From NCBI RefSeq assembly GCF_902859875.1, contig NZ_CADIKF010000020.1, positions 1 to 64,000 of the forward strand: a DNA stretch of 64,000 nt. Reading direction: 5' to 3'. The translations under genes were made by a program, and so were the position numbers. The notes under the pieces were generated by a model. The model was given only the letters and a program-made list of their open reading frames with translations, was not told the origin of the DNA and ran no database searches. Shown here one piece after another: positions 2,055-64,000 of the stretch. Position 1 is the stretch's first letter, and each line of letters starts with the position of its first letter. Source of the DNA: Paraburkholderia solisilvae. Lineage in GTDB: Bacteria > Pseudomonadota > Gammaproteobacteria > Burkholderiales > Burkholderiaceae.

Positions 2055-2966
2055 CTACGTCTCGCCCGTCCAATACCCCGGCTGCGCGTACGCCGCTTTC
2101 AGATAATCGATGAAATACCGCACCTTCGCCGGCACGAACCGCTGCTGCGGATACACCGCGACAATGTCGTAATCGGGCAACGCATACTCGTCGAGCACGG
2201 TTTCGAGTTCGCCGCGTACGAGCTGCTGCTGCACTTCCCACGTCGAGCGCCAGCCGAGCCCCAGCCCTTCGGACACCCAACGGTGCAGCAACTCGCCGTC
2301 GTTGCAATCGAGCGTGCCGCCGACGCGCACCGTCACGAGCTTGCCGTTGCGCCGGAAGTACCAGCCGCGGTTCTGCCCGCCTTGCAGGTTGAACGCGAGG
2401 CAATTGTGCTGCGGCAGATCGTCGAGCGTTCTGGGCCGTCCGTGCCTCGCGAAGTAGGCGGGCGTGCCGCACACGACGCGCCGGTTCGACGCGAGCTTGA
2501 CCGCGACGAAGTTCGGATCGACCGCGCCGCCGATGCGGATCGACAGGTCGTAGCCCTCGCGCACGAGGTCGACCACGCGGTCGGTCAGATTGAACGACAC
2601 CTGCAGTTCGGGCTTGTCCGCCAGAAACGCGGATGCGAGCGGCGCGACGTGCTTGCGCCCGAACGCAGCCGGCGCCGACACGATCAGATGGCCGCTCACG
2701 CCGCGGTGCCCGGCGCTCAGTTCGTTCTCCGCCTGATCCCAGTCGGCGAGCATTCCACGGCAGCGTTCGAGGAAGGCGGCCCCCTCTTCGCTGACGACGA
2801 GCCGCCGGGTGGAGCGGTACATCAGCTTGACGCCGACCCGCTTTTCGAGCGCGTCGATACGGCGCCCAAGGATGACCGGCGACACCCCTTCCTCGAGCGC
2901 CGCGGCCGCGAGACTGCCCGCATCCGCGACGCGCACGAAGGTTTCGATCTGCTTGAAGCGGTCCAT
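2055..2966 (-). CDS. LysR-family transcriptional regulator, divergent from gcl
   Basis: A 303-residue protein of normal LysR length. The N-terminal winged helix-turn-helix covers FVRVADAGSLAAAALEEGVS (10-29) and is followed by LGRRIDALEKRVGVKLMYRS; a periplasmic-binding-like effector domain fills the rest. The ATG at 2966 is preceded by GGGAG; the open frame continues upstream without a plausible start. It is transcribed away from gcl with 167 bp between the two starts, the usual layout when the regulator controls the divergent operon. The effector is unknown; a glyoxylate or allantoin-pathway intermediate is a guess from context. Confidence 0.9.
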   Translation of the reverse strand: MDRFKQIETFVRVADAGSLAAAALEEGVSPVILGRRIDALEKRVGVKLMYRSTRRLVVSEEGAAFLERCRGMLADWDQAENELSAGHRGVSGHLIVSAPAAFGRKHVAPLASAFLADKPELQVSFNLTDRVVDLVREGYDLSIRIGGAVDPNFVAVKLASNRRVVCGTPAYFARHGRPRTLDDLPQHNCLAFNLQGGQNRGWYFRRNGKLVTVRVGGTLDCNDGELLHRWVSEGLGLGWRSTWEVQQQLVRGELETVLDEYALPDYDIVAVYPQQRFVPAKVRYFIDYLKAAYAQPGYWTGET

Positions 2967-3016
2967 CCCGGTCTCCCATTCAGCCCTGTTAAAGCTGGCT
3001 AGCCCGATATCGATTA

Positions 3017-3031
3017 GATACTTTTTGTATC
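3017..3031. promoter_or_regulatory. Inverted repeat, probable LysR operator
   Basis: GATACTTTTTGTATC is a perfect 5-bp inverted repeat around TTTTT, about midway between the divergent LysR gene and gcl. Its size and AT-rich centre fit a LysR-type box. The binding is inferred from position. Confidence 0.6.
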
Positions 3032-3133
3032 GGAATAAACAACTCAGGGTGATCTTATCAAACCTTTGAGGCAGGCCTAAAGTGCGAGGAACGCCCCATT
3101 TCCCACTTAGCAGGACCCTCCGAGGAGACATTC

Positions 3134-4918
3134 ATGGCCAAGATGAGAGCCGTCGACGCAGCCGTACTCGTGCTCGAAAAGGAAGGCATCGACACCGCGT
3201 TCGGCGTGCCGGGCGCCGCGATCAACCCGTTCTATTCCGCGATGCGCAAGGCGGGCAATATCAGCCACGTGCTCGCGCGTCACGTCGAAGGCGCGTCGCA
3301 TATGGCCGAAGGCTACACGCGCGCCGCGCCCGGCAATATCGGCGTGTGCATCGGCACGTCGGGGCCGGCCGGCACCGACATGATCACCGGCCTCTACTCG
3401 GCCTCCGCCGATTCGATTCCGATTCTCGCGATCACCGGCCAGGCGCCGCGCGCGCGCCTCTACAAGGAAGACTTCCAGGCCGTCGATATCGAATCGATCG
3501 CCAAGCCCGTCACCAAATGGGCGGTCACCGTCCGCGAGCCGGCGCTCGTGCCGCGCGTGTTCCAGCAGGCATTCCACCTGATGCGCTCGGGCCGCCCGGG
3601 TCCGGTGCTGGTCGACCTGCCGATCGATGTGCAACTGGCCGAAATCGAGTTCGATATCGCGACCTACGAACCGCTGCCGATCTACAAGCCGAAGGCGAGC
3701 CGCGGGCAGATCGAAGCGGCGTTGAAGATGCTGAACGACGCGGAAAAGCCGCTGATCGTCTCGGGCGGCGGCGTGATCAACGCGGCAGCCGAAGACCTGC
3801 TCGTGCAATTCGCCGAAACGCTCGGCGTGCCGGTCATCCCGACGTTGATGTCGTGGGGCGCGATTCCCGACGACCATCCGCTGATGGCCGGCATGGTCGG
3901 CCTGCAGACGTCGCACCGCTACGGCAACGCGACGATGCTCGCGTCGGACTTCGTGCTCGGCATCGGCAACCGCTGGGCGAACCGCCATACCGGCAGCATC
4001 GAGGTTTACACCAAGGGCCGTAAGTTCGTGCACGTGGATATCGAGCCGACGCAGATCGGCCGCGTGTTCGGGCCGGATCTCGGCATCGTGTCCGACGCGA
4101 AGGCGGCGCTCGAACTGTTCGTCGAAGTCGCGAAGGAATGGAAAGCGGCGGCCAAGCTGAAGAACCGCGGCGCATGGGTCGAGCAATGCCAGGAGCGCAA
4201 GCGCACGATGCTGCGCAAGACGCACTTCGACAACGTGCCGGTCAAGCCGCAGCGCGTCTACGAAGAGATGAACAAGGTATTCGGCCGCGACACCTGCTAT
4301 GTGAGCACGATCGGTCTGTCGCAGATCGCGGGCGCGCAGTTCCTGCATGTGTTCAAGGCGCGCAACTGGATCAACTGCGGCCAGGCGGGCCCGCTCGGCT
4401 GGACCATTCCGGCCGCGCTCGGCGTGCGTGCGGCGGACCCGCAGCGTCCGATCGTCGCGCTGTCCGGCGACTACGACTTCCAGTTCATGATCGAAGAGCT
4501 CGCGGCCGGCGCTCAGTTCAAGCTGCCGTACGTGCACGTGGTGGTGAATAACTCGTACCTCGGCCTGATCCGTCAGGCGCAGCGCGCGTTCGACATGGAC
4601 TACTGCGTACAGCTCGCGTTCGACAATATCAACGCGCCGGAAGTGGAAGGCTATGGCGTCGATCACGTCGCGGTCGCAGAAGGTCTCGGCTGCAAGGCGT
4701 TGCGCGTGTTCAAGCCGGAAGAGATCGCACCGGCGCTGAAGAAAGCGCAGTCGATGCTCTCCGAGTTCAACGTGCCGGTGGTCGTCGAAGTCATTCTGGA
4801 ACGCGTGACCAACATTTCGATGGGCACGGAAATCGACGCGGTCAACGAGTTCGAAGAGCTCGCCGAATCGCACAAGGATGCGCCGACGTCGATCAGCGCA
4901 CTCAGCGCGCTGGACTGA
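3134..4918 (+). CDS. gcl: Glyoxylate carboligase (tartronate-semialdehyde synthase)
   Basis: The 594-residue ThDP enzyme condenses two glyoxylates to tartronate semialdehyde and CO2. The N-terminal PYR domain has [16 protein letters not shown] (23-38) and [15 protein letters not shown], with Val51 at the place where other ThDP enzymes have the catalytic glutamate; this substitution is the known hallmark of Gcl. The C-terminal ThDP-binding [12 protein letters not shown]...NNSYLGLIR is intact. GAGGAGA precedes the ATG. It heads the gcl-hyi-glxR group that takes glyoxylate to glycerate. Confidence 0.97.
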
Positions 4919-7243: not shown

Positions 7244-8905
7244 CTAGCACCGCACATACTGTCCCGGTTGAAAGATCCGCAACAGATACTCTTTCATCGA
7301 CGGCGCGAAATCCGGCCGCTCGATCGTGTCGGGCGCATGCGCGAACGACGCGAAGCGAAATTGCACCGGGTACGTCTGATCGAGATAGTTCTGCAACTCG
7401 TCGCGTGTCTTGAACGGCGTGAAGTCGACTACGCAGGAGCGCGCATGCTGGTCCGCGATCCGCGACTTCAGGTCGGCAGCCGTGTCCGGAATGCGATAAG
7501 GCGCCGCCTGCATTTCGAGGACCGTTTTCCCCGGCGGATAGTAAAGGCCGTAGAAGCCATCGACGAGCGGCGCCACATCGGGCAGCCGCAAGTTCACGAT
7601 AACGTCCGCGTCCGTGTTTTCGCTGTGGTGTCGAACCAATGCATGCGGCGGAAAGACATAGCCGTTCGCAAGCGCGTCTTTCAGCTGGAACGGCAGCAAC
7701 AGGTCTTGCGCGACAAGCAGAGAAAACACGCCGTACACCGCAACCGGCAGCGCCGGGTAAATGCGCGACCGCGCGCGCGTCATCATGCCGATCGATGCGG
7801 CCGCAACGAACGTCAACCCGTAGCTGATCGTCCGCGGCGAATACAGATCGTATTGCGTCTGCGTGCGCAGATAAAACGCGAGCAGCAGAAAAGCGACGCC
7901 CGAGAACATCAGCAGCCGGCAAGCGCGCGCGTCGCCATCGCCGCGCACGGCACGGCCGGGTTGCAACGGCCACGCGCCATATTTTCTCGCGAGCCAAAGC
8001 AGCAGCACGGCCGCGACGCTGAACCACACGCCTTCCTTCGCGAGCTGCACGACGAACTTGACGGTCAGGAAACCGAACGTCTCAGGCGCGGGAATGCGGC
8101 CCATGCCCGTGCCGAAACCGGTCATCTGGATGTTGAACTTCTGGTACGCAACGAAGAAGACGGCGGACAGCACAAAGGCCGGCAGCGCGACGAGCGCCGT
8201 CTTCCTGCCGTACGCGAGCCACACGCCAATAAAGATGGCCGCGGCAAAGGGCGCGAAGAAGTAGCGGGCCGAACAGCCGGCCACCAGGAACAGCGCCAGC
8301 AACGACACGTTCCAGTATCGTCTTTCGCCGCGATGGATGCGCGAAATCGCGTACACGGCACCGCAAAACGCGAACAGAAAGAGGTTTTCGGACCACGTGT
8401 ACTGATACAACCCGATCGACAGCGGATTGATGATGATCAGCGCGGGCACGAGCACGTTGCGGAAGGTCTTCATCAACAGCCAGAATCCGCCGAACGCGAG
8501 TATCAGGTTGGTCGCCTTGCTGCTCAGCATCAGGCTCGCGATATCGTGTGCGGGCGCCGTCAACGCGATCGCGAGCGGGTAGCCGCACGGGAAGACCGCG
8601 AAGTACGCGCCGTCGACCGTGCAGCCGCGGCCGTCGCGGATCGACTGCGCGAGATGCAGGTAATTCCACGAGTCGACCGTCAGGAAGCCGAACGCGCCGG
8701 CTGCGAGCGCGCCGGCGGCAAGCACGATAAAGATCGCCAGACAATACGCAGATCGCGTCGAGCTCCAACGGCTCACCATCGATTGCGACCGCGCCCGCTG
8801 CACGCGCATCGGCGGCGCCGCCTCGATGCTGGCCGATGATGCGGGCGTGATGGTCAGCCCACGCAAAACGCCCGTCATCCACCGGTAAAACTGGCCCGCT
8901 TCCAT
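7244..8905 (-). CDS. Polytopic membrane protein, GT-C glycosyltransferase-like; candidate arabinofuranosyltransferase
   Basis: The 553-residue protein has about ten to eleven hydrophobic segments from residue 45 to about 400 and a soluble C-terminal domain of about 130 residues. After the first membrane segment the loop reads VDSWNYLHLAQSIRDGRG, resembling the acidic first-loop motif of GT-C enzymes that use polyprenyl-phosphate sugars. The ATG at 8905 has GGAGGA upstream. It is the last gene of five co-directional genes whose other members match decaprenyl-phospho-arabinose synthesis, so transfer of an arabinofuranosyl unit outside the inner membrane is the best guess. The acceptor is unknown. 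Confidence 0.7.
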   Translation of the reverse strand: MEAGQFYRWMTGVLRGLTITPASSASIEAAPPMRVQRARSQSMVSRWSSTRSAYCLAIFIVLAAGALAAGAFGFLTVDSWNYLHLAQSIRDGRGCTVDGAYFAVFPCGYPLAIALTAPAHDIASLMLSSKATNLILAFGGFWLLMKTFRNVLVPALIIINPLSIGLYQYTWSENLFLFAFCGAVYAISRIHRGERRYWNVSLLALFLVAGCSARYFFAPFAAAIFIGVWLAYGRKTALVALPAFVLSAVFFVAYQKFNIQMTGFGTGMGRIPAPETFGFLTVKFVVQLAKEGVWFSVAAVLLLWLARKYGAWPLQPGRAVRGDGDARACRLLMFSGVAFLLLAFYLRTQTQYDLYSPRTISYGLTFVAAASIGMMTRARSRIYPALPVAVYGVFSLLVAQDLLLPFQLKDALANGYVFPPHALVRHHSENTDADVIVNLRLPDVAPLVDGFYGLYYPPGKTVLEMQAAPYRIPDTAADLKSRIADQHARSCVVDFTPFKTRDELQNYLDQTYPVQFRFASFAHAPDTIERPDFAPSMKEYLLRIFQPGQYVRC

Positions 8906-9144
8906 CTTCGCATGTCCTCCAACGGCGTCGTGAGCTTCGCGCAACGACCGTCGGCCGGCCCGTTGCATCGAACGATGCGGCCGCTGTACGAGCGGCCGAT
9001 GGCAGTCGAGGGGACACGCCGCCACGCGAGCTTGCGAGCGGGCAATATCGTCACGCCGCGGCGACCGCCGGATCTGCTCCGGCGCCGCGGCTCCCCCCGG
9101 GTTGGCCGCGGGCGCGGTGCGCGCCGCGGCCCACTGTTGTCGTA

Positions 9145-10566
9145 CTAGATGGCCAGCACCATGCTGATCGCGCACAGTCCGATCACCGCACCGCTCACGC
9201 GGTCCTTGAATGTGAACACGATCGGGTCGTCATGCATCTGGCCGCGAAACGCGAACATCCAGATCCGGCTGACCCAGTACAGCGTCAGCGCGAACACCGC
9301 CCACAGCAACTGCGGATGCCGGTACATCTGCGTGAGTTCCGGCGAATTCAGATAAAGCGCGAGCACCAGCACCGCGAGATACGCGGAGGACGTGCCGAAC
9401 GAGCGCAGAATCGACATATCCTGCGTGATATAGCCGCGCCCCGCCGCTTCCATTCTGCCCTGACGCAGAATGCTCTCGAGCTCGACGTAGCGCTTCACCA
9501 TCGCAAGGCTCAGGAAGATCGGCACGCAAAAGAGAATCAGCCAGTACGACAGCGTGATGTCGGTGGCCGCGCCGCCCGCGATCACACGCACCGTGTACAG
9601 GCACGCAAGCGTGAACACATCGATGAGCGCCATGCGTTTCAGGCTGAACGAGTACGCGACGGTTGCCGCCAGATACGCGGCGAGCACCGCGCCGAAGTGC
9701 CACGGCAGCAACGTCGCGAGCCCGATGCCGCCGGCAAGCAGCGCAACGGTCACGACGATGCCCAGCGACAGCGGCAGATGCCCCGACGCGAACGGGCGGC
9801 TGCGCTTGCGTTCGTGACGGCGGTCGGCGTCGAGGTCGAGCATATCGTTGAGCAGATACACCGACGATGCACTGAGATTGAACGACGCGAACGCGATACA
9901 GGCCTCGAGCATCACATGCGGATCCGCGAAGCGGTGTGCGGTCAGCACCGGCACGAAAATCAGCACGTTCTTGACCCACTGGTGCACGCGCATCTCTTTC
10001 AGCACGAGCGGCACGATGCGGCGCTTGCTTTCGAAGAAGATGATCGCTTCGTTGACCTTGCGCGCGGCAGCCGCGATATGCCGGTCGCCGACCACGATCG
10101 CGCGGCGCGCGCGACGCCACACCGGCACGTCGGCGAGCGCATCGCCGCAATAGTCGAAGCCCTGGTCGCCGAACTCCGCCACCAGCACATCGGCCTTGTT
10201 GCGGCCAAGCAGATTGCGCTCGGCGGTGCTCGCGAGCACGCCCTTGAAGAGGCCGAAGTGCTCGGCCACCTGGCTTGCAAAACGATGATTGGACGCCGTG
10301 CACAGATACAGCGACCGGCCGGTGGAATGCTCGTCGCGCAGATAGTCGACCAGTTGGCTGTTGTACGGCAACACGCCGACATCGAGCGTCACGCGTTTGG
10401 CGATCTGCTCTTTCAGATGCGCCTTGCCGTGCAGCAGCCACGCGAGACAAAGGAAAATGGCCCATGGGTTGTGCTTCACCAGCACCAGGAACCCTTCGAG
10501 AAGAAAATCCGTACGCGTGAGCGTGCCGTCCAGATCGACGCATAACGGAATTGCCGTATTCGCCAT
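9145..10566 (-). CDS. HAD phosphatase-UbiA prenyltransferase fusion (polyprenyl-phosphoribose synthase-like)
   Basis: The 473-residue protein is a fusion. Residues 1-185 are a HAD phosphatase with DLDGTLTRTD (11-20) and motif IV YCGDALADVP (139-148). Residues 190-473 are a UbiA-type membrane prenyltransferase with LLNDMLDLDADRRHERKRSR (238-257), the Asp-rich site. That half resembles mycobacterial Rv3806c, which transfers phosphoribose from PRPP to polyprenyl phosphate; the HAD half could remove the 5-phosphate. The start at 10566 follows GAGGT; upstream in-frame codons look non-coding. 239 bp separate it from the downstream GT-C-like gene. Confidence 0.88.
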   Translation of the reverse strand: MANTAIPLCVDLDGTLTRTDFLLEGFLVLVKHNPWAIFLCLAWLLHGKAHLKEQIAKRVTLDVGVLPYNSQLVDYLRDEHSTGRSLYLCTASNHRFASQVAEHFGLFKGVLASTAERNLLGRNKADVLVAEFGDQGFDYCGDALADVPVWRRARRAIVVGDRHIAAAARKVNEAIIFFESKRRIVPLVLKEMRVHQWVKNVLIFVPVLTAHRFADPHVMLEACIAFASFNLSASSVYLLNDMLDLDADRRHERKRSRPFASGHLPLSLGIVVTVALLAGGIGLATLLPWHFGAVLAAYLAATVAYSFSLKRMALIDVFTLACLYTVRVIAGGAATDITLSYWLILFCVPIFLSLAMVKRYVELESILRQGRMEAAGRGYITQDMSILRSFGTSSAYLAVLVLALYLNSPELTQMYRHPQLLWAVFALTLYWVSRIWMFAFRGQMHDDPIVFTFKDRVSGAVIGLCAISMVLAI

Positions 10567-10765
10567 GAATACCTCGTTCACCTGACGTTTTTCTTCAACG
10601 CACTGCTTGCGCAGTCGGGTCCGGACGGCCCGCTTCATTTCGCATCCGGAACGGCGGCAACAGCGGAAGATGTCGTCGCGAGCAATCCGCATACGGAATG
10701 CGCGACGACCAGGGCCATGCTATCGATGCATCCGGCGCGGCTCTGTGCGGCACCGCACCGCGAGC

Positions 10766-11281
10766 TCAAGCGAACACGAAACGCTTGTCGAGGTGGTACT
10801 TCGCGAGATAGCCGAGCGTCAGTCCGAGCGCACCGCCTGCAAGGCGTGCCGGCTCGGTATGGAAGATGGCCTGCGCGCTGAACTCGACGGCCCAGAAGAG
10901 CGCGGTCGTGCCCAGCCCCATCACGACGTACAGCGTGAATGTCTGGAGGCCATGCGCGACGCTGCGATGCGGGTAGCGAAAAATCCAGGCCTTGTCGAGC
11001 ATGTATTTGACGACGAGCCCGACGCCGGTGCCGACGCATACCGACAACGGCACCGCAAGCCATCCGCTATAGAGCCAGAACGAAAGCTTCTGGCTCGCGA
11101 GGTTGGCGACAATCGACAATGCCGCGAATGTCGCGTACCACACGACGAGCCGCGAACGGTTAAGCGGCGTCGCAGCCGCAGCGAGTGCCGGGCCGCTCAT
11201 CGTGGCGCCGCCTGGCGAACATCGCGAAGCGACAGCAGGCTTCGCGCGTTTGCGCACGCAAGCGTCCGGTGTGGTCTGCAT
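10766..11281 (-). CDS. GtrA-family membrane protein
   Basis: Four hydrophobic segments in a small protein (171 residues from the ATG at 11281, or 144 from the ATG at 11200, which is closer to the usual GtrA length). YMLDKAWIFRYP and YLAKYHLDKRFVFA show the family's repeated K.W.F / K.FVF pattern. GtrA proteins are linked to movement of polyprenyl-linked sugars across the inner membrane. The mycobacterial homologue Rv3789 lies next to dprE1-dprE2, as this one does. The gene begins 13 bp after the SDR stop. Confidence 0.85.
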   Translation of the reverse strand: MQTTPDACVRKRAKPAVASRCSPGGATMSGPALAAAATPLNRSRLVVWYATFAALSIVANLASQKLSFWLYSGWLAVPLSVCVGTGVGLVVKYMLDKAWIFRYPHRSVAHGLQTFTLYVVMGLGTTALFWAVEFSAQAIFHTEPARLAGGALGLTLGYLAKYHLDKRFVFA

Positions 11282-11294
11282 AGCGCCGGCCGCT

Positions 11295-12035
11295 TCACAG
11301 CGACACCCGTTTGAAAACGAAGCCCGGCAGCGCGCGGATGACCAGCATGATGCCGCTCCAGAACCACGGCGTGTACAGCGCATCCTTGCCGCGCTCGACC
11401 GCGCGCACGATATCGGCCGCAACCCGCTCCGGCGACGCGACCAGCGGGCCCGGCAGCGACAGGCCCGCTGTCATCGGCGTATCGACGAAGCCTGGTTTGA
11501 TCGTCAGCACGCGTACGCCGGATTTGAAGAGGCGCGCGCGCAGACCTTCGCAGAAGGTCGCGACCGCCGCTTTCGCCGCGCCGTACACATAGTTCGACGG
11601 CCGGCCGCGGTCGCCCGCCACCGACGCGATCACCGCGAGCGTGCCGCTGCGCTGGCTTTCTAACAGGCCCGCCAGCAGCGTAAGCAGGGCGATCGTCGAG
11701 ATCGCGTTGGTCGACAGTTCGTGCAACGCGGCGCCGACGTCGCGCTCGCACTGTGTCTGATCGGGCAGCGAACCGTGCGCGATCAGCACGATATCGATAC
11801 TCCCCAGCGCGCGGCGGCATGCGTCGAGCATCGCCGGATGCTGCAGATGATCATTCATGTCGAGCACATGGGTCAGCACATTGCCCGCGCCGCGCACGCG
11901 CAGATCCTGCGCCACGGCGTCGAGCCGCAACGGCTGACGGCCGGTCAGGAACAGGTTGGCGCCCTGCTCCGCCCAACGCCGCGCGCAGGCGGCCGCGATG
12001 GCGGACGAGCCGCCGACGATCAGAACATTCTTCAT
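11295..12035 (-). CDS. Short-chain dehydrogenase, DprE2-like
   Basis: The 246-residue SDR has the nucleotide-binding NVLIVGGSSAIAAACA near the N-terminus, IAHGSL (85-90), catalytic Ser138 and YGAAK (151-155), and a C-terminal hydrophobic patch WFWSGIMLVIRALPGFVFKR. In mycobacteria DprE2 reduces the 2'-keto intermediate made by DprE1 to polyprenyl-phospho-arabinose. The ATG overlaps the stop of the FAD oxidase gene (ATGA at 12032-12035), so the two are translationally coupled, as expected for partners of one epimerisation. The substrate is inferred. Confidence 0.87.
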   Translation of the reverse strand: MKNVLIVGGSSAIAAACARRWAEQGANLFLTGRQPLRLDAVAQDLRVRGAGNVLTHVLDMNDHLQHPAMLDACRRALGSIDIVLIAHGSLPDQTQCERDVGAALHELSTNAISTIALLTLLAGLLESQRSGTLAVIASVAGDRGRPSNYVYGAAKAAVATFCEGLRARLFKSGVRVLTIKPGFVDTPMTAGLSLPGPLVASPERVAADIVRAVERGKDALYTPWFWSGIMLVIRALPGFVFKRVSL

Positions 12036-13354
12036 GACTGTGTGGTCCGTTGCCAGAATCGCGACATCAAGGCCGGATCGCGATTGCGTTCGAGTTGGTG
12101 CCACGCCGGATACGCAGCGCGAAAACATGCGCCGCTCATATGCGCATCTTTCGCTGGATATTGACGGCCGCCCGCTTCGCTGACGATCGCGTCGAGCCGT
12201 TGAAAGAGCGCATCGTTGCGGCGCGCGTGTTGAGGAAAATCCAGTGCGAGCGACACGCCTTGCATCGGAAACGAGAGCAGACCTGGCGACGCGAGCGCGC
12301 CGCAACGCTTGAGCACCGCGAGAAACGAGCCCGAGCCGCTGTGCGCAATTGCCGCGAGAATCGCTTTGAGCGCGTCACGCGCGGCCGCTTCAGGAATTAC
12401 GCACTGATGCTGCTGGAAACCGCGCTGGCCGTAGATGCGGTTCCAGTGCAGGATGCTGTCGAGCGGATACAGGAAGCGGATCAGATCGACATCCGCATGT
12501 GCGCTGCGCTGTCGTTGACGCCGGTAATACAGCGCGTTGAACGGCTTTAACGTATAGCGGTTGATCAGCGATAGCGGCAGCGCGAACGGCACGGTGCGCA
12601 CGCGCGCCGCGGGCATCGACAGATCGCCGTGCGTCGCGTGGTCGCCGCACATATAGAGACCGCGCCCGAGCGCCGCGCCGTTTGCAAGGCAATCGACCCA
12701 CGCGACACCGTATTCATGCTGCGGATCGAGTTCGTTCGACAGCGCGAAAAAACCGTCGAGATTGTCGAAGCGGATCGACGTGGTCGAGATGCGGCTCGAC
12801 TGCACCGGCATCAACTGGATTTCGACCCACTCGATCACGCCGGTGAGACCGAGGCCGCCGATCGTCGCGCGAAACAGTTCGTCGTTTTCACCGGGCGCGC
12901 ATTCAGCGGGGGCGCGGTCCGAGCGCAGCAGCGAAAAACGCCGCACGTGCCGCCCAAAGGTGCCGCGCACGTGATGGTTTTTGCCATGGACGTCATTGGC
13001 CACCGCGCCGGCGAGCGTCACGAACTGCGTGCCGGGCGTGACCGGCAGCATCCAGCCGCGCGGCACCGACAGCGCGAGCACGTCGCCGAGCGTCACGCCC
13101 GCTTCGGCCCTGAGTACGCCGTTCGTCCAGTCCGCGCTGATAAAGCGGCCGACGGCGCGCATATGCAGCACATGGTCGGTTGCCGCGAGGCAGCTGTCGC
13201 CGTAGCTGCGGCCGTTGCCGAACGCGAGCGTCGTGCCGAAGCGCGCGCTCACGCGCTCCAGTTCCGCCTGGATCGCGTCGCGCCACGCTAACGGGTGGCT
13301 CGATTGGGGCGCGTGAGGATAGTGCCCCCACGACTGCAGCTTCGACGCGCTCAT
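12032..13354 (-). CDS. FAD-linked oxidase, DprE1-like (polyprenyl-phosphoribose 2'-oxidase)
   Basis: The 440-residue protein has the VAO-type FAD-binding GNGRSYGDS (46-54), PVTPGTQFVTLAGAVANDVH (104-123), GKNHH and GTFGRHV. The DVHGKNHH block contains His123, matching His132 of mycobacterial DprE1. Lys402 in AKDAH matches the active-site Lys418. The residue aligned with Cys387, the target of benzothiazinones, is Ala370 in GVSLALDFP. It is the first gene of the five-gene run. Start at 13354 (MSAS); the alternative upstream frame lacks family similarity. Confidence 0.9.
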   Translation of the reverse strand: MSASKLQSWGHYPHAPQSSHPLAWRDAIQAELERVSARFGTTLAFGNGRSYGDSCLAATDHVLHMRAVGRFISADWTNGVLRAEAGVTLGDVLALSVPRGWMLPVTPGTQFVTLAGAVANDVHGKNHHVRGTFGRHVRRFSLLRSDRAPAECAPGENDELFRATIGGLGLTGVIEWVEIQLMPVQSSRISTTSIRFDNLDGFFALSNELDPQHEYGVAWVDCLANGAALGRGLYMCGDHATHGDLSMPAARVRTVPFALPLSLINRYTLKPFNALYYRRQRQRSAHADVDLIRFLYPLDSILHWNRIYGQRGFQQHQCVIPEAAARDALKAILAAIAHSGSGSFLAVLKRCGALASPGLLSFPMQGVSLALDFPQHARRNDALFQRLDAIVSEAGGRQYPAKDAHMSGACFRAAYPAWHQLERNRDPALMSRFWQRTTQS

Positions 13355-57545: not shown

Positions 57546-58598
57546 CTACTCCGTCCGCTCCGCGGCCAGCGGAGCCGCGCCGGCCGGCAAACTCGTGCGC
57601 GCGCGTGCATCGAGCGTGCGCCGCGCAAACTTGAACAGCGGCCGGTCGACGAACCGGTAGAACAGACAGCCGGCACAAGTCGCACAGATCACCGCCAGCA
57701 CCGCGCCGAGCGGCGCGCGAATATCGAAGCCGTGCACGATTTTCGGCAACAGCTTGCGCATCGATTCGACCACGAACGGATGGCTCAGATAGGTCGCGTA
57801 ACTCGCGTCGCCGATGTAGATCAGCGCGCGCGTCGCGCGATTGTCGCGAATCGACTCCTCGAGGCTCAACGCACACAGCACGAGGCAGAACGACGGCAAG
57901 CCGTTGCGCACGAGCGGCGAGCTACCCGGCAGCGCCCACTCGGCGTAGGTCATCAGCACATACATCGCGACCGCGCCCGGCAGCGCGAGCGTCGCCGGCA
58001 CCCGCGCGCCGCGCTTCCACGCGTACCACGTCGCGATGCCGAGCGGAAATTCGAGCAGACGGTTTTCCGCGAGGAAACGGCCGAGCGCATGACTCGAATG
58101 CGCAAGCACCGCGACGACATAAAGCGTGGCGAGCGCGACCGTGATAAACGCGAAGCGGCGCTCACGCATCAGCAGCAGTGCGAGCGCGGTGACGACATAG
58201 AACAGGATTTCGTAGTTGAGCGTCCAGCCGACGAACAGCATCGGAAAGATCTGGCCGCTCTCCTTCGTATACGGAATGAAGAACAGCGACTTCAACAGCT
58301 CGCCCACATTGGCCGTCGTCGAATTGAAGAGGTCGGGCCGCACGATCGCGCCGAAAAACACCACGAACGTCATCAGCCAGTACAGCGGCACCACGCGCGC
58401 CACGCGGCTGACGGCGAATTCGCGCACCGTCATCGTGCCCGGGCTCAACGCGAGCGCGATCACGAAGCCGGACAGCACAAAGAAGATATCGACGCGAAAC
58501 GCGCCGAACGCCGTGCCGTTCGTGATCATCACGTGATGCACGATGACCGTGGTCGCAGCAACCGCGCGGAGAATTCTCAAGGAGTTGAGCTTACGCAT
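57546..58598 (-). CDS. Acyltransferase 3 family membrane protein
   Basis: The protein (350 residues from the ATG at 58598; 357 from 58619) has about ten membrane segments and the acyltransferase-3 hallmarks LRILRAVAATTVIVHHVMIT and VDIFFVLSGFVIALALSPG. DASYATYLSHPFVVESMRKL closes the core. It probably transfers acetyl or other acyl groups to a surface polysaccharide. It is convergent with the A-T-TE gene and divergent from the second acyltransferase. Confidence 0.9.
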   Translation of the reverse strand: MRKLNSLRILRAVAATTVIVHHVMITNGTAFGAFRVDIFFVLSGFVIALALSPGTMTVREFAVSRVARVVPLYWLMTFVVFFGAIVRPDLFNSTTANVGELLKSLFFIPYTKESGQIFPMLFVGWTLNYEILFYVVTALALLLMRERRFAFITVALATLYVVAVLAHSSHALGRFLAENRLLEFPLGIATWYAWKRGARVPATLALPGAVAMYVLMTYAEWALPGSSPLVRNGLPSFCLVLCALSLEESIRDNRATRALIYIGDASYATYLSHPFVVESMRKLLPKIVHGFDIRAPLGAVLAVICATCAGCLFYRFVDRPLFKFARRTLDARARTSLPAGAAPLAAERTE

Positions 58599-58870
58599 CT
58601 GGCACCCATAACGGGACATCGCCGGAGGATTCTAGGCATACGAAATAGCGTTGATCAGACAACATCCGGTGTCGGCACGCCGCGAGCGTGCGCTGCACCA
58701 AATACCGCGCGCCGTTGTCCGTCGATGCCTGGCGATTGGCCGACATCGCCGTGCCGCCGCGGCCAGTATTGACGTGCCAGCTGTCCGGACCCGCGATGCG
58801 GCGGGCGCAGCTTGCGTGATGAGGATGATGAAAAATACCGGCGATTTCAGCCATATGCGGGGCGTGCACC

Positions 58871-60973
58871 ATGAATCCACGGCAGATGAACGTCAGCATG
58901 CTCGCGGCCGAGCGTCATGCTTATGCACCCTATATCGACGGGCTGCGCGCCATCGCGGTGCTCGCGGTGATCGCCTATCACCTGCATCCGCAGTGGCTGC
59001 CCGGCGGGCTCGCGGGCGTCGATATCTTCTTCGTCATTTCCGGCTTCGTCGTCAGCGCGTCGGTCGGCGCGCTGAGCTCGGTCAGCCTGTCGCGCTTCGT
59101 GCTGTACTTCTATGCGCGCCGCGTGCAGCGCATCGCACCGGCGCTGATCGTCTGCCTCGTCGCCACCGCGCTCGCGTCGGTGCTGTTCATTCCATCCGCG
59201 TGGCTGAGCGACACCAACTCGAAAACCGGTCTCTTCGCGTTCTTCGGCCTCAGCAATCTCGTGCTCGCGAAGACCGGCAACGACTATTTTTCGCCGCGCG
59301 TCGAGTTCAATCCGTATATGCATACGTGGTCGCTCGGTGTCGAAGAACAGTTCTATCTGATCTTCCCGGTGCTGTTCTTTCTGTGGGTCAGCAAGGCGCC
59401 GCGTCGCAAGCTGACGCTCGTGCTGTTCGGCGCCGGCTTTGCCGCATCGCTCGTGTGTGCGAAATGGCTGGCAGTCGGTCATGAAACGCTCGCGTTCTAC
59501 CTGATCTTCAGCCGCTTCTGGGAACTCGCGGCCGGCGTGATGCTGTATCAGGCGCTGGTGCTGTGCGGGCGCCCGTTCGGCGTCGCCGAACGCGGCGCCA
59601 CGTGGGTCACGTCGAGCGCCGCGCTGCTGTCGCTCGGCCTCGTCGCGGTCGGCCTTGCACTGTCGGCGCCGAACACGTTTCCGTTTCCCGGCGCGCTGCT
59701 GCCGGTGGCCGGCACGCTCGGCCTGCTCGGCTTTCTCCATGGGCGGCGCACCGAAGGCATGCTGCATCGCGTGCTCGCGTCGCGCGGCGTCGTGTTTATC
59801 GGCAGGATTTCGTACTCGCTGTATCTCTGGCACTGGCCGGTGATCGTGCTGCTGCGCTGGACCACCGGCATCGATACCGCGCTGGAAAAAACAGTCGCCG
59901 CCGTGCTCACGTTCGCGCTCGCCAGCGCGTCGTATTACTTCGTCGAGAATCCGGTGCGCCGCTCGCCGCGCTTGCGGCAGTGGCCGCGCCCGGCGGTCAT
60001 CGGTTCCGGATTCGGCGTGATCGTACTCGGCGCGGCGCTCACCTTCGGCCTCTATCAGCAGCAGCCGCGGCTGTCGCTGAGCGTCGTTTCGCATCAGGCC
60101 GACGACTGGTACCCGTACGGCGCGCTCAACCAGCGCTATGCGGGCTGCAGCGAAAAGTGGGACACCCGCAAGCTCGATGACGGCCCGGTGTGGACCTATT
60201 CGCGGGTCGGCTGCAATGTGCCGGCGCGCTACGCGTCGCGTCTGTTCGTGATCGGCGATTCGCACGCGATGGCCTATAGCCTGATGTTCCGCGAACTCGC
60301 GTTGCAAACCGGCGTCGAGGTGCTGTCCTATAACAACGGCGGTTGCGCGTTTATCGGCTTTCTGCCGGTCGATCGCGCGGACGCGACGCGCTGCAAGGCG
60401 TACGACGACGACGCGTTTGCTGAAATTCTCGAGAAGGTGCGGCCAGGCGACGTCGTGTTCCTGCCGTCGCTCAGGCTGCCGCGCTTTTCCGACCAGTTCG
60501 CGCGTTTCGACGATCGCGCCGCGCACGATGCGATGTTCAGCGGCGCGTCGCTCGCGGAGCGCCGTGCGCGCGAACAGGAAGCGATCCAGCTGCTGCACAA
60601 GCTGACCGCACGCGGCGCGAAGGTGGTGCTCGAAGCGCCGGAGCCGGTCTTCCGGACGCCGGCCTTCCGCTGTGCGGACTGGTTCAATCGCGACAATCCG
60701 ATCTGCACGCCCGGCGGACAGGTGCCGCGCGCGGACGTGGAAGCGTATCGCGCGCCGGTGCTCGATTCGTATGCGCGCATCGCGCAGGCGGTGCCGTCGG
60801 TCAGCGTGTGGGACCCCTTGCCGGTGCTGTGCCCGGACGACGTCTGCTCGATGCATACGGGCGGCGTGCCGCTCTTCTTCGACGGCGACCATATCAGCGG
60901 TTATGCGAACCGCCTGCTCGCGCCGCACTTCCAGAAATTCATCGTCACGCTGATGGACGCGCCGCGCACGTAG
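58871..60973 (+). CDS. OafA/YrhL-type acyltransferase with C-terminal SGNH domain
   Basis: The 700-residue protein has an acyltransferase-3 membrane half (YIDGLRAIAVLAVIAYHLHP, VDIFFVISGFVVSASVGALS, EEQFYLIFPVLFFLWVSKAP, SYSLYLWHWPVIVL) and a periplasmic SGNH half starting near residue 400 with FVIGDSHAMAYSL and a late FFDGDHISGYANRLLAPHF containing the Asp/His pair. Such two-part enzymes O-acetylate LPS or other glycans. Later in-frame ATGs at 58886 and 58898 are alternative starts. Confidence 0.92.
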   Translation: MNPRQMNVSMLAAERHAYAPYIDGLRAIAVLAVIAYHLHPQWLPGGLAGVDIFFVISGFVVSASVGALSSVSLSRFVLYFYARRVQRIAPALIVCLVATALASVLFIPSAWLSDTNSKTGLFAFFGLSNLVLAKTGNDYFSPRVEFNPYMHTWSLGVEEQFYLIFPVLFFLWVSKAPRRKLTLVLFGAGFAASLVCAKWLAVGHETLAFYLIFSRFWELAAGVMLYQALVLCGRPFGVAERGATWVTSSAALLSLGLVAVGLALSAPNTFPFPGALLPVAGTLGLLGFLHGRRTEGMLHRVLASRGVVFIGRISYSLYLWHWPVIVLLRWTTGIDTALEKTVAAVLTFALASASYYFVENPVRRSPRLRQWPRPAVIGSGFGVIVLGAALTFGLYQQQPRLSLSVVSHQADDWYPYGALNQRYAGCSEKWDTRKLDDGPVWTYSRVGCNVPARYASRLFVIGDSHAMAYSLMFRELALQTGVEVLSYNNGGCAFIGFLPVDRADATRCKAYDDDAFAEILEKVRPGDVVFLPSLRLPRFSDQFARFDDRAAHDAMFSGASLAERRAREQEAIQLLHKLTARGAKVVLEAPEPVFRTPAFRCADWFNRDNPICTPGGQVPRADVEAYRAPVLDSYARIAQAVPSVSVWDPLPVLCPDDVCSMHTGGVPLFFDGDHISGYANRLLAPHFQKFIVTLMDAPRT

Positions 60974-61170: not shown

Positions 61171-62265
61171 TCAGTTGAAGGTATCGTCACCGGCGATCAA
61201 CCGGTCGCGCACCAGCGAGCGCCAGCCGTCATAACGCGCGGTCGGTGCGCCGACAAAATCCGGCTCGTCGCGCTTCACATGCAACTGATCGGAATACGCG
61301 CCGTACTCGGACGTATGCTGCTGGCGCCGGGCTTCCGCCTGCAGCTTGTCGTCGAGGTCCGCGAGAAACTTGAAGTGCAGCAGCGCGCTCGTGATCGCGC
61401 CACCTGCGCGCGACGCCGGCTGATTCAGGCGCGCGGGCCACAATTGATGCGACGACTTCAGAAACGCGTACGGCTTCTTCCAGTACACGAGCGGCGTCTT
61501 GTTCAGTGCCGGACCGTCCCACACGTCCTTGAAGAAAATACGTCCGCGCACCCCGCCCTTCGTCCATGTCGTGCGCGAGCGCGGATCGAAGCGCGTCTGA
61601 TAGCCGTACGCGTCGTATAACGGACAGACGCTTGCCGGATCTTCGCCGGGCAGGCACGCGTTGTCGCGAGTGCGATTGCCGCTATACATGTCGAGCATCA
61701 GGCTGTTCATCGAACGTTGGCCGTGCGTTGCGAGGTGGTCGGTCAGCGCCGCAATGCCGCGCGTATCGTGATGCGGGTACACAAAGAACTCGTCCGCGTC
61801 GACGTAAAGAATCCACTTGCCGCTGCAATAACGCGACAGCACGGTATTGATCCAGTCGTTGCCGAAACGCGATTGCTTGTACGAACCGTGCGCGGCGAAC
61901 AGCGACACGCCGGGCTCGCCGGCGAGCAGCTCGCGCAGGCCGTCGGTGGAATCGTTGTCGAGCACGATAAACTGCTCGAAGCCGAGCGCTTTGTAATAAC
62001 GCAGAAAAAACGCCATCCGGTGCGCTTCGTTATGCACCGTCATGATCAGCACATGCGACGCGGCCGGCAGGCCCGGCGCGATGCGCACCGCGCGGACTTC
62101 GCGCGCCTTTGCGATGCGCCGGATATGCGCCTTCGAAAATTCGACCGCGTTATAGAGCAGAAAGGACAAGCGTCCCGCTCGCTCGCCGCGCTGCCCCGCC
62201 TTCGGCAAAGCGGCGGCAGCGGGCTGCGGCAGGTGCATCGGCGTGGTCTGGTCTTGCGTTGTCAT
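61171..62265 (-). CDS. Glycosyltransferase, family 2-like (PF13704 type)
   Basis: The 364-residue protein has VLIMTVHNEAHRMAFFLRYY, EQFIVLDNDSTDGLRELLAG and the DxD motif in WILYVDADEFFVYP, typical of the Glyco_trans_2_4 group. FLKSSHQLWPARLNQPASRA and ALLHFKFLADLDDK follow. No membrane segment is seen. Probably adds a sugar in a surface glycan; donor and acceptor are unknown. The ATG at 62265 gives the family's usual N-terminus after an unconserved 35-residue lead. Confidence 0.87.
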   Translation of the reverse strand: MTTQDQTTPMHLPQPAAAALPKAGQRGERAGRLSFLLYNAVEFSKAHIRRIAKAREVRAVRIAPGLPAASHVLIMTVHNEAHRMAFFLRYYKALGFEQFIVLDNDSTDGLRELLAGEPGVSLFAAHGSYKQSRFGNDWINTVLSRYCSGKWILYVDADEFFVYPHHDTRGIAALTDHLATHGQRSMNSLMLDMYSGNRTRDNACLPGEDPASVCPLYDAYGYQTRFDPRSRTTWTKGGVRGRIFFKDVWDGPALNKTPLVYWKKPYAFLKSSHQLWPARLNQPASRAGGAITSALLHFKFLADLDDKLQAEARRQQHTSEYGAYSDQLHVKRDEPDFVGAPTARYDGWRSLVRDRLIAGDDTFN

Positions 62266-62683
62266 GTGAGAAACCCCGAGCGGTTTTCCGTTTACGGCGA
62301 GCACTGAACGCCGCACAACCGGCAACAGCCAGAGCCGGCCAACCTGCGCGCGTCGTTTTGCATGCCAAACGATACTAGCATCGAACCCTTCAGACGAGAC
62401 GTCAGCATCCCGTACTTTTACGCCTGCAATGTGCCCTGCCGATCGTAGTCGCCCCGCCTGTGTGCGAACGCACGCGCACCGCCCGGCGCCATGCGCCGAA
62501 TGGCCGATGGCGCCGGGATTTGGGCCGAAGCGGAAGGCCGCGGCTACCTAGAATGCCTGACAAGCGTCGGTCCGCATCGTGCCATGCGGACCGGTTCAGC
62601 GCCGCTGATCATGGTCCCGGTAAGGTCAAGACAGCGGCGCGGCGCAACCGGACAGATCCGGCGCCGATTCGGAGGAGATTGCG
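62266..62683. other. Intergenic region upstream of rmlA
   Basis: 418 bp between divergent genes with no supported gene. The promoter regions of both must lie here; no consensus pair or JUMPstart-like element was noticed. Confidence 0.4.
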
Positions 62684-63649
62684 ATGGCTCGCAAAGGCAT
62701 CATTCTGGCGGGGGGCTCGGGCACGCGTTTGTACCCGATCACGCATGCGGTATCGAAGCAGCTGATTCCCGTCTACGACAAGCCGATGATTTACTACCCG
62801 CTGTCGACGCTGATGCTCGCCGGAATCCGCGACGTGCTCATTATCTCCACCCCGCAGGACACGCCGCGCTTCGCGACGCTGCTGCGCGACGGCCATCAGT
62901 GGGGCATGAATATCCAGTACGCGATACAGCCGTCGCCGGACGGTCTCGCGCAGGCCTTCCTGATCGGCCGGCGCTTTATCGGCCGCTCGCCGTCGACGCT
63001 GATCCTCGGCGACAACATCTTCTACGGCCACGACCTGCCGACGCGCCTCGCGCGCGCGAGCGCCGCGAAGCATGGCGCAACCGTGTTCGCGTATCACGTG
63101 AGCGACCCGGAGCGCTATGGCGTCGTCGAATTCGACAGCCGGCAGCGCGCGCTGTCGATTGAGGAAAAGCCCACCCGCCCGCGCTCGAACTACGCGGTGA
63201 CCGGTCTTTACTTTTACGATAACGACGTGTGCGACATCGCGGCAGGCATCGCGCCTTCCGCGCGCGGCGAGCTCGAGATCACCGACGTCAACGCGTGCTA
63301 CCTGCAAGCGGGACGCCTCGACGTCGAGATCATGGGCCGCGGCAATGCATGGCTCGACACCGGCACGCACGACTCATTGCTCGACGCGGCGATGTTTATC
63401 GCGACACTGCAAAAACGCCAGGGCCTGATCGTATCGAGCCCGGAGGAAGTCGCCTACCGGCAGGGCTGGATCGACGCGCAACAACTGCACAGGCTCGCCA
63501 CGCCGCTCGTCAAGAGCGGCTACGGCAACTACCTGCTCGGCATTCTCGACGACCAGCCAGGCGAGCCGCTCGACGCCCAACCGGCCGTTCTGCGCGACAT
63601 GCACGTGATCGACGCGTTGAGCCGGCATAGCGACGCGCTCCAGACGTAA
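62684..63649 (+). CDS. rmlA: Glucose-1-phosphate thymidylyltransferase
   Basis: The 321-residue protein opens [20 protein letters not shown], with [53 protein letters not shown] and [16 protein letters not shown], all classic RmlA/RfbA. It makes dTDP-glucose, the first step to dTDP-rhamnose and related sugars. GGAGGAG precedes the ATG. The other rml genes are not in the window; the following gene is a glycosyltransferase. It is about 25 residues longer at the C-terminus than E. coli RmlA. Confidence 0.96.
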
Positions 63650-63758: not shown

Positions 63759-64000
63759 ATGACGACATCCGTATCGGTCGCGATGGCGACCTGCAACGGC
63801 ATGCGGTATCTGGCTGCGCAGCTGGAAAGTCTTGCGCATCAGACCTGGCTGCCCGCCGAACTGGTCGTCACCGACGACGCCTCGACCGACGAGACCGTAC
63901 AGATCGTCGAAGCCTTTGCCCGCGTCGCGCCCTTTCCGGTGCGGCTGCATATCAACCCGAAACGGCTCGGTTATCGCGCGAACTTCATGAAGGCCGCGCA
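63759..64000 (+). CDS. Glycosyltransferase family 2 (3' end outside window)
   Basis: The first 80 codons read TSVSVAMATCNGMRYLAAQL, ESLAHQTWLPAELVVTDDAS and TDETVQIVEAFARVAP, the GT-A nucleotide-sugar-binding start of family GT2, similar to rhamnan or O-antigen glycosyltransferases. AAGGA lies upstream. It follows rmlA by 109 bp, consistent with a rhamnose-containing polysaccharide locus continuing to the right. Confidence 0.9.
   Translation, partial: MTTSVSVAMATCNGMRYLAAQLESLAHQTWLPAELVVTDDASTDETVQIVEAFARVAPFPVRLHINPKRLGYRANFMKAA

Follow-up and report, generated by a model that had tools for sequence, protein, structure and literature searches.

Which sugar is activated by a five-gene locus of Paraburkholderia solisilvae, and onto which acceptor is it transferred? 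The locus occupies positions 7244–13354 of the analyzed stretch of 64,000 nucleotides of contig NZ_CADIKF010000020.1 (the window), and all five genes are located on the minus strand. In order of transcription they encode: (i) a DprE1-like FAD oxidase (E1; 12032–13354, 440 aa), the predicted polyprenyl-phosphate-ribose 2'-oxidase, (ii) a DprE2-like reductase of the short-chain dehydrogenase/reductase (SDR) type (E2; 11295–12035, 246 aa), the gene of which overlaps that of E1 by 4 bp (ATGA), (iii) a small membrane protein of the GtrA family (10766–11200, 144 aa, with a possible longer start at the in-frame ATG at 11281), the putative donor flippase or its partner, (iv) a fusion of a HAD phosphatase with a UbiA phosphoribosyltransferase (HAD-UbiA; 9145–10566, 473 aa), the predicted polyprenyl-phosphoribose synthase, and (v) a GT-C membrane glycosyltransferase (7244–8905, 553 aa, GGAGG 5' of the ATG), the predicted arabinofuranosyltransferase. 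Judged from its sequence, this operon is very probably a pathway for a polyprenyl-phosphate D-arabinofuranose (D-Araf) donor. That it additionally serves the decoration with D-Araf of an exopolysaccharide encoded on the same contig has, as a complete explanation, slightly better than even prospects.

Predicted formation of the donor

Gene order, common strand and ATGA overlap had been described in a first-pass annotation of the sequence and are confirmed by the coordinates, by phmmer searches against the sequences of solved structures and by the Pfam/NCBIfam domains of the operon proteins (FAD_binding_4, adh_short, GtrA, UbiA and HAD). In the proposed pathway, the UbiA domain would transfer ribose-5-phosphate from phosphoribosyl pyrophosphate (PRPP) onto polyprenyl phosphate (presumably undecaprenyl phosphate), the fused HAD domain would remove the 5'-phosphate, and oxidation by E1 followed by reduction by E2 at C2 would yield the arabinose epimer. 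GtrA may help the donor to reach the periplasmic face, and the GT-C protein would pass D-Araf to an acceptor outside the cytoplasm. Good support for this route, proposed in the first-pass annotation as proceeding from PRPP via polyprenyl-phosphate-ribose-5-phosphate and -ribose to -arabinose with subsequent GT-C transfer, comes from the sequences, the conserved residues and the predicted fold. Homology, residues, fold prediction and gene linkage are what the analysis establishes, and from these the individual reactions, the polyprenol, the part played by GtrA, the sugar and the acceptor are inferred.

Solved DprE1 chains match residues 3–428 of E1 (E=1.8e-65; 161 of 417 residues identical in the pairwise alignment), and the best solved match of E2 is a DprE2 chain (E=1e-29). 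Since both proteins score below the curated NCBIfam equivalog cut-offs (NF053785, 341.6 bits for E1, cut-off 500; NF053786, 178.2 bits for E2, cut-off 250), they are regarded as homologues rather than as NCBI-grade equivalogs of DprE1 and DprE2. The generic SDR model PRK07102 outscores the DprE2 model on E2 (350.6 bits, cut-off 267).

Of 34 positions read off in the active-site region, E1 shares 25 with DprE1 (including R58, Y60, H132, K134, Q334, Q336, K367, D389 and K418) and differs at nine (I131V, S228V, Y314L, F369C, N385S, I386L, C387A, V388L and T416P); the solved chain is presumably in M. tuberculosis numbering, and Y60, Y314 and Q336 are taken to be pocket residues. K418, H132 and Y60 are kept in all 108 E1 rows, which, like the 99 HAD-UbiA rows considered below, stem from fetched loci and are not deduplicated, with the window's gene and several genomes counted twice. 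In mycobacterial DprE1, Cys387 is the covalent benzothiazinone site. The corresponding residue of the window's protein, A370, is alanine in 108/108 rows, all of which have lysine at K418. Most of the DprE1 pocket residues listed for E1 are also named in a passage of PMC11588222.

The substitutions C387A, Y314L and S228V among the nine altered positions, the scores of E1 and E2 under the equivalog cut-offs and the higher score of PRK07102 could also be explained by a final sugar other than D-Araf (ribofuranose, Ribf, or another pentofuranose), with E1 and E2 acting on a different or further modified intermediate; a GT-C enzyme promiscuous for Ribf or xylofuranose (Xylf) was reported by Kelly et al. 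(PMC11127046). This alternative is improbable in view of the 25 retained positions and of the statement in the same paper that DprE1/E2 homologues accompany glycans containing Araf, and Araf rather than Ribf is considered the likely donor sugar with good confidence.

The UbiA half of the fusion protein matches Rv3806c, a decaprenyl-phosphate phosphoribosyltransferase (8j8j, E=1.8e-33), named as M. tuberculosis DPPRS in PMC11127046, and the entire fusion protein scores 643.7 bits with NF006088 (cut-off 351). The residues of its NDxxDxxxD and KRYxEL motifs, the same as those tested in ORF15 of Citrobacter (PMC11127046), are conserved in 99/99 rows. The HAD domain (PF12710, 30 bits, cut-off 27) displays a DLDGT motif, the first aspartate of which (the nucleophile) is present in 97/99 rows. 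The GtrA protein is recognized by NF037976 (165.9 bits, cut-off 50) and by PF04138 (30.3 bits, cut-off 26.1).

Chance resemblance or mis-called genes are ruled out by the matches to solved structures together with the Pfam/NCBIfam domains. It is likewise unlikely that E1 and E2 represent unrelated FAD or SDR enzymes: E1 has a single match (at E 1e-3) in the genome (7.30 Mb, 145 contigs), and 76 of the 81 fetched E1 loci contain matches to both HAD and UbiA. Outside the window, gene calls rely on the ORF scoring of this analysis, which sometimes misses E2 and GtrA, the absence of which is accordingly not claimed. Among the named genomes, the nearest E1 is that of P. humisilvae (93 %).

The GT-C protein and its candidate acceptor

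Pfam and NCBIfam contain no family for the 553-aa GT-C protein. Its AlphaFold model (predicted local distance difference test score 89) adopts a GT-C fold with multiple transmembrane helices (TM) and a conserved aspartate (D78) after TM1, which may be catalytic. The arabinofuranosyltransferases AftB and AftA are the first two Foldseek matches of this model; the GT-C label of the first-pass annotation, which had suggested structure prediction against AftA, is thereby borne out. The Foldseek TM-scores to AftB and AftA are modest (0.35–0.43) and oligosaccharyltransferases surpass both in VIA-align of the GT-C model, so that the sugar is not nameable from the fold alone. A family profile compared with PDB sequences yielded nothing useful (best E 0.82), with no detectable match to solved arabinosyltransferases. 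The homologue search, in which the 8000 best candidates were scored, gave 49 matches, P0020, P0048 and P0049 being left out of the alignment; the homologues of P. pallida, MM5482-R1 and EG285A are represented by protein records only. The GT-C protein is quite likely the transferase of the donor operon.

Lipopolysaccharide (LPS), pilin, a lipid or a protein had been named as possible acceptors in the first-pass annotation; comparison of genomes suggests a further candidate, an exopolysaccharide. A cluster of the Wzx/Wzy type for its synthesis, at about 57.5–82 kb of the contig, begins inside the window, 44 kb from the donor operon. Within the window it comprises, as first gene of the region, an acyltransferase of family 3 (57546–58619, minus strand, PF01757), found in the same order in P. 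humisilvae (G191) and P. rhizosphaerae (G214), followed by an acyltransferase-SGNH fusion (58871–60973, plus strand, PF01757 and PF19040), a family 2 glycosyltransferase (61171–62325, minus strand, PF13704), a sugar nucleotidyltransferase, RmlA-like by eye (62684–63649, plus strand, PF00483 with 264.8 bits), and the start of a GT2 gene running past the window's end (63759–64000, plus strand). Beyond the window, at 64.9–80.4 kb, Wzx-like, DegT and Wzy-like proteins, glycosyltransferases (GTs), Wzc, Wza and a priming transferase are encoded, with the Wzy-type gene at 68.8–70.4 kb. The likeliest acceptor would be this exopolysaccharide, either as the repeat unit on its lipid carrier or as the polymer during elongation; from the gene neighbourhoods described in the following, the chances that the GT-C protein acts on it appear about even.

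Outside donor operons, four GT-C copies were found in three Paraburkholderia genomes, namely those of P. humisilvae, P. rhizosphaerae and P. piptadeniae (G211), and each of the four has a homologue of the window genome's Wzy-type protein nearby. The two genes directly adjoin each other at loci L085 and L086, as well as at L084, where the Wzy homologue is a fragment; at L087 they are 3.9 kb apart inside an exopolysaccharide cluster. The other genes of the cluster (compared over 57.5–83.5 kb) are preserved in order in G191 (16/16) and G214 (15/16, one GT not called), with 77–94 % identity. No wzy is present in these two clusters, each fetched as two pieces, where Wzx and an acyltransferase alone represent the ORFs of at least 150 aa with at least six predicted TM. 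The sole Wzy homologue of either genome adjoins the GT-C copy on another contig, at different sites (L085 and L086). Since wzy is gone from the cluster and its sole homologue adjoins GT-C elsewhere, the two genes are read as having moved together. In P. piptadeniae a related cluster occupies the same site, with GT-C at its edge. At L084 (G211:C57:22000-37473), the Wzy fragment lies directly upstream of GT-C with transposase-like genes (by eye) nearby, an indication that this copy of the pair has decayed. At L085 (G191:C29:26000-45000), a PRPP-synthase-like gene (by eye; 2904–3863) resides about 3–5 kb from the pair, probably reflecting a housekeeping neighbourhood.

One may tentatively speculate, with some doubt, that the GT-C protein is the first member of a new and narrow family of arabinofuranosyltransferases and adds D-Araf to the flipped, lipid-linked repeat unit of an exopolysaccharide, in partnership with a Wzy polymerase matched to the decorated unit; such matching would be the reason why the wzy and GT-C genes stand together.

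If the same donor and GT-C protein served the O antigen or core of LPS instead, following the example of Citrobacter youngae, this would agree with the role in O antigen formation of an enzymologically shown HAD-UbiA relative (PMC11127046) and with the fact that Wzy_C is Pfam's O-antigen ligase family. It appears rather unlikely, since the linked cluster carries Wza-, Wzc- and priming-transferase-type genes, which are typical of systems exporting exopolysaccharides or capsules, and since GT-C is found together with the wzy of this cluster. Pilin or another secreted protein as acceptor, analogous to TfpW of P. paraeruginosa, where a D-Araf locus serves pilin (PMC12369383), is unlikely: no pilin family was met in the ten flanking proteins scanned, the rest of the genome not having been searched for pilins, and the linked genes are polysaccharide genes. 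In its favour stands the GT-C homologue of Caballeronia fortuita (L088, G124:C14:133000-152000; 43–44 % identical), which is located beside small-peptide, phosphatase-like and secretion-type (ABC/HlyD-like) genes by eye.

The immediate flanks of the donor operon are ordinary, comprising according to Pfam asparaginase, LysR and solute ABC transporter genes upstream, and 6-phosphogluconate-dehydrogenase-like, xylose-isomerase-like, thiamine pyrophosphate (TPP)-enzyme and LysR genes downstream. Prediction of promoters (0, versus 1.1 in shuffles) and terminators (4, versus 6.7 in shuffles) was uninformative.

Linkage and co-occurrence of donor operon and wzy

The proposed decoration of the exopolysaccharide is also consistent with the position of donor operons in relatives. 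Directly ahead of the operon of P. oxyphila stand homologues of the cluster's GTs, Wzc, Wza and priming transferase, in cluster order (58–74 % identical), and 3.1 kb separate the priming transferase from E1 in G160 and G174. E1 proteins with at least 71 % identity were classed as window-type and are present in 26 genomes of the genus, 20 of which also possess wzy. In these 20, the distance between both genes is less than 60 kb on one contig in ten cases and more than 500 kb on one contig in four, and six have them on different contigs. Of the 13 copies of the other E1 type in genomes with wzy, one lies within 60 kb of wzy, five are further away on one contig (64–724 kb) and seven on different contigs.

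Across 144 genomes, wzy co-occurs with window-type E1 in 20/26 cases and is present in 33/118 genomes lacking it, an uncorrected difference that partly reflects kinship; the wzy count of 53 leaves out weak matches in G155, G156 and G172 and ignores a second weak place in G250. Stratification into two groups by PyrD likeness, a single-gene split by rank that is not shown to be a clade, gave an odds ratio of 4.9 (p 9e-5). The signal resides in a group of 97 genomes whose PyrD is most like that of the window's genome (11/13 versus 10/84); tree simulations were limited to these 97, which were singled out once the signal had become apparent in them, and reached the observed co-occurrence in 1 and 3 of 3000. 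P. piptadeniae has window-type E1 and wzy, and its nearest relatives in the tree, G180 and G170, have neither. Co-occurrence of E1 and wzy does not equal function.

Several observations weigh against this exopolysaccharide as the acceptor of D-Araf. In the window's genome, 60 kb separate GT-C from wzy, and the Wzy_C score exceeds the Pfam cut-off of 31.7 only slightly (34.3), falling below it in L085 (28.8) and L087 (23.9); the Wzy-type protein may be a polymerase or a ligase. The search in G191 and G214 covered sequence homologues, and a sequence-unrelated wzy elsewhere in either genome is possible. The C. fortuita GT-C copy has no adjoining wzy, and the genome contains no wzy homologue. Likewise, the loci of P. 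oxyphila, G160 and G174 do not carry this GT-C at the junction. The 47 genomes outside the 97 (including three placed there without a pyrD match) exhibit no co-occurrence (9/13 versus 23/34), and the choice of the 97 was post hoc. Finally, P. sartisoli (G040) and G219 harbour window-type E1 with neither this GT-C nor wzy, indicating that the donor core serves other acceptors too. Because the core thus occurs without GT-C and wzy, the junction loci are devoid of GT-C and the setting in Caballeronia differs, the donor pathway is held to be very probable and its exopolysaccharide acceptor an evenly balanced matter.

Two further features of E1 loci were observed. On contig C96 of G160, both E1 locus types are present 55 kb apart (200439–201749 and 257043–258362) with wzy between them. 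In a second core arrangement (HAD-UbiA, E1, E2; 22 loci including L010, L016 and L020), the core is often followed by NAD epimerase-like and FAD amine-oxidase-like genes, which possibly serve further modification of the lipid-linked sugar. These follow-on genes were found at 21 of the 76 E1 loci left outside the window-type class (which include L001 and L094, window-type loci cut off before HAD-UbiA) and at 0/31 window-type loci.

Comparison with known arabinofuranose systems

HAD-UbiA polyprenyl-phosphoribose synthases, as well as DprE1/E2 homologues for Araf, were described in Gram-negative bacteria by Kelly et al. 2024 (PMC11127046), with formation of polyprenyl-phosphate-ribose by a HAD-UbiA protein shown by enzymology. 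The donor pathway is thus already known in kind, and since passages of PMC11127046 and PMC12369383 describe it in Gram-negative bacteria, this half is less novel than the first-pass annotation had supposed. A word search of the main text of PMC11127046 did not find "Burkholderia", and no paper on the present locus was found in the open-licence literature, judged by title and without supplements; an earlier description is possible. What is added here is a candidate acceptor and a GT-C family, unclassified in Pfam/NCBIfam, that is found with a Wzy-type protein. If true, the proposal would offer experiments a definite acceptor, bring in a GT-C family that is not yet classified and make the synthesis, flipping and use of polyprenyl-phosphate-Araf tractable to study. 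Mycobacterial-type D-arabinofuranose donors belong to a drug-target pathway, and little has been mapped of how Gram-negative soil bacteria use them.

In Citrobacter youngae O1/O2, the HAD-UbiA protein ORF15, the MATE protein ORF14 and the GT136 member ORF12 are encoded, and a GT-C enzyme adds pentofuranose side chains to the O polysaccharide (PMC11127046). Common to both systems are the fused HAD-UbiA synthase and GT-C transferase in one locus and the motif residues. The present operon differs in that a GtrA-family protein takes the position of the MATE flippase, in the DprE1/E2 pair (none in O1, an SDR epimerase in O2) and in standing apart from the polysaccharide cluster.

The pilin arabinosylation system PSPA7_6245-6251/TfpW of P. 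paraeruginosa (PMC12369383) likewise consists of proteobacterial D-Araf genes, ubiA among them, that serve an extracytoplasmic transferase. In contrast to it, the flanks scanned here contain no pilin gene; the P. aeruginosa enzyme is without a fused phosphatase domain according to a passage of PMC11127046, whereas the window's fusion protein has one. ArnT, acting on lipid A with 4-amino-4-deoxy-arabinose (Ara4N), shares 6 % identity with the GT-C protein.

From the mycobacterial decaprenyl-phosphate-arabinose pathway (Rv3806c, Rv3807c, DprE1, DprE2, Rv3789 and AftA/AftB), which contributes to the cell wall of tuberculosis bacteria, the operon differs by a phosphatase that is a fused HAD domain instead of Rv3807c, by alanine in place of Cys387 of DprE1 and by a transferase for which sequence comparison with solved arabinosyltransferases detected no match. 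The predicted chemistry is nevertheless the same in both, the top matches among solved structures are DprE1, DprE2 and Rv3806c for their respective counterparts, and both pathways comprise a small membrane partner and a transferase with a GT-C fold like that of AftA/AftB.

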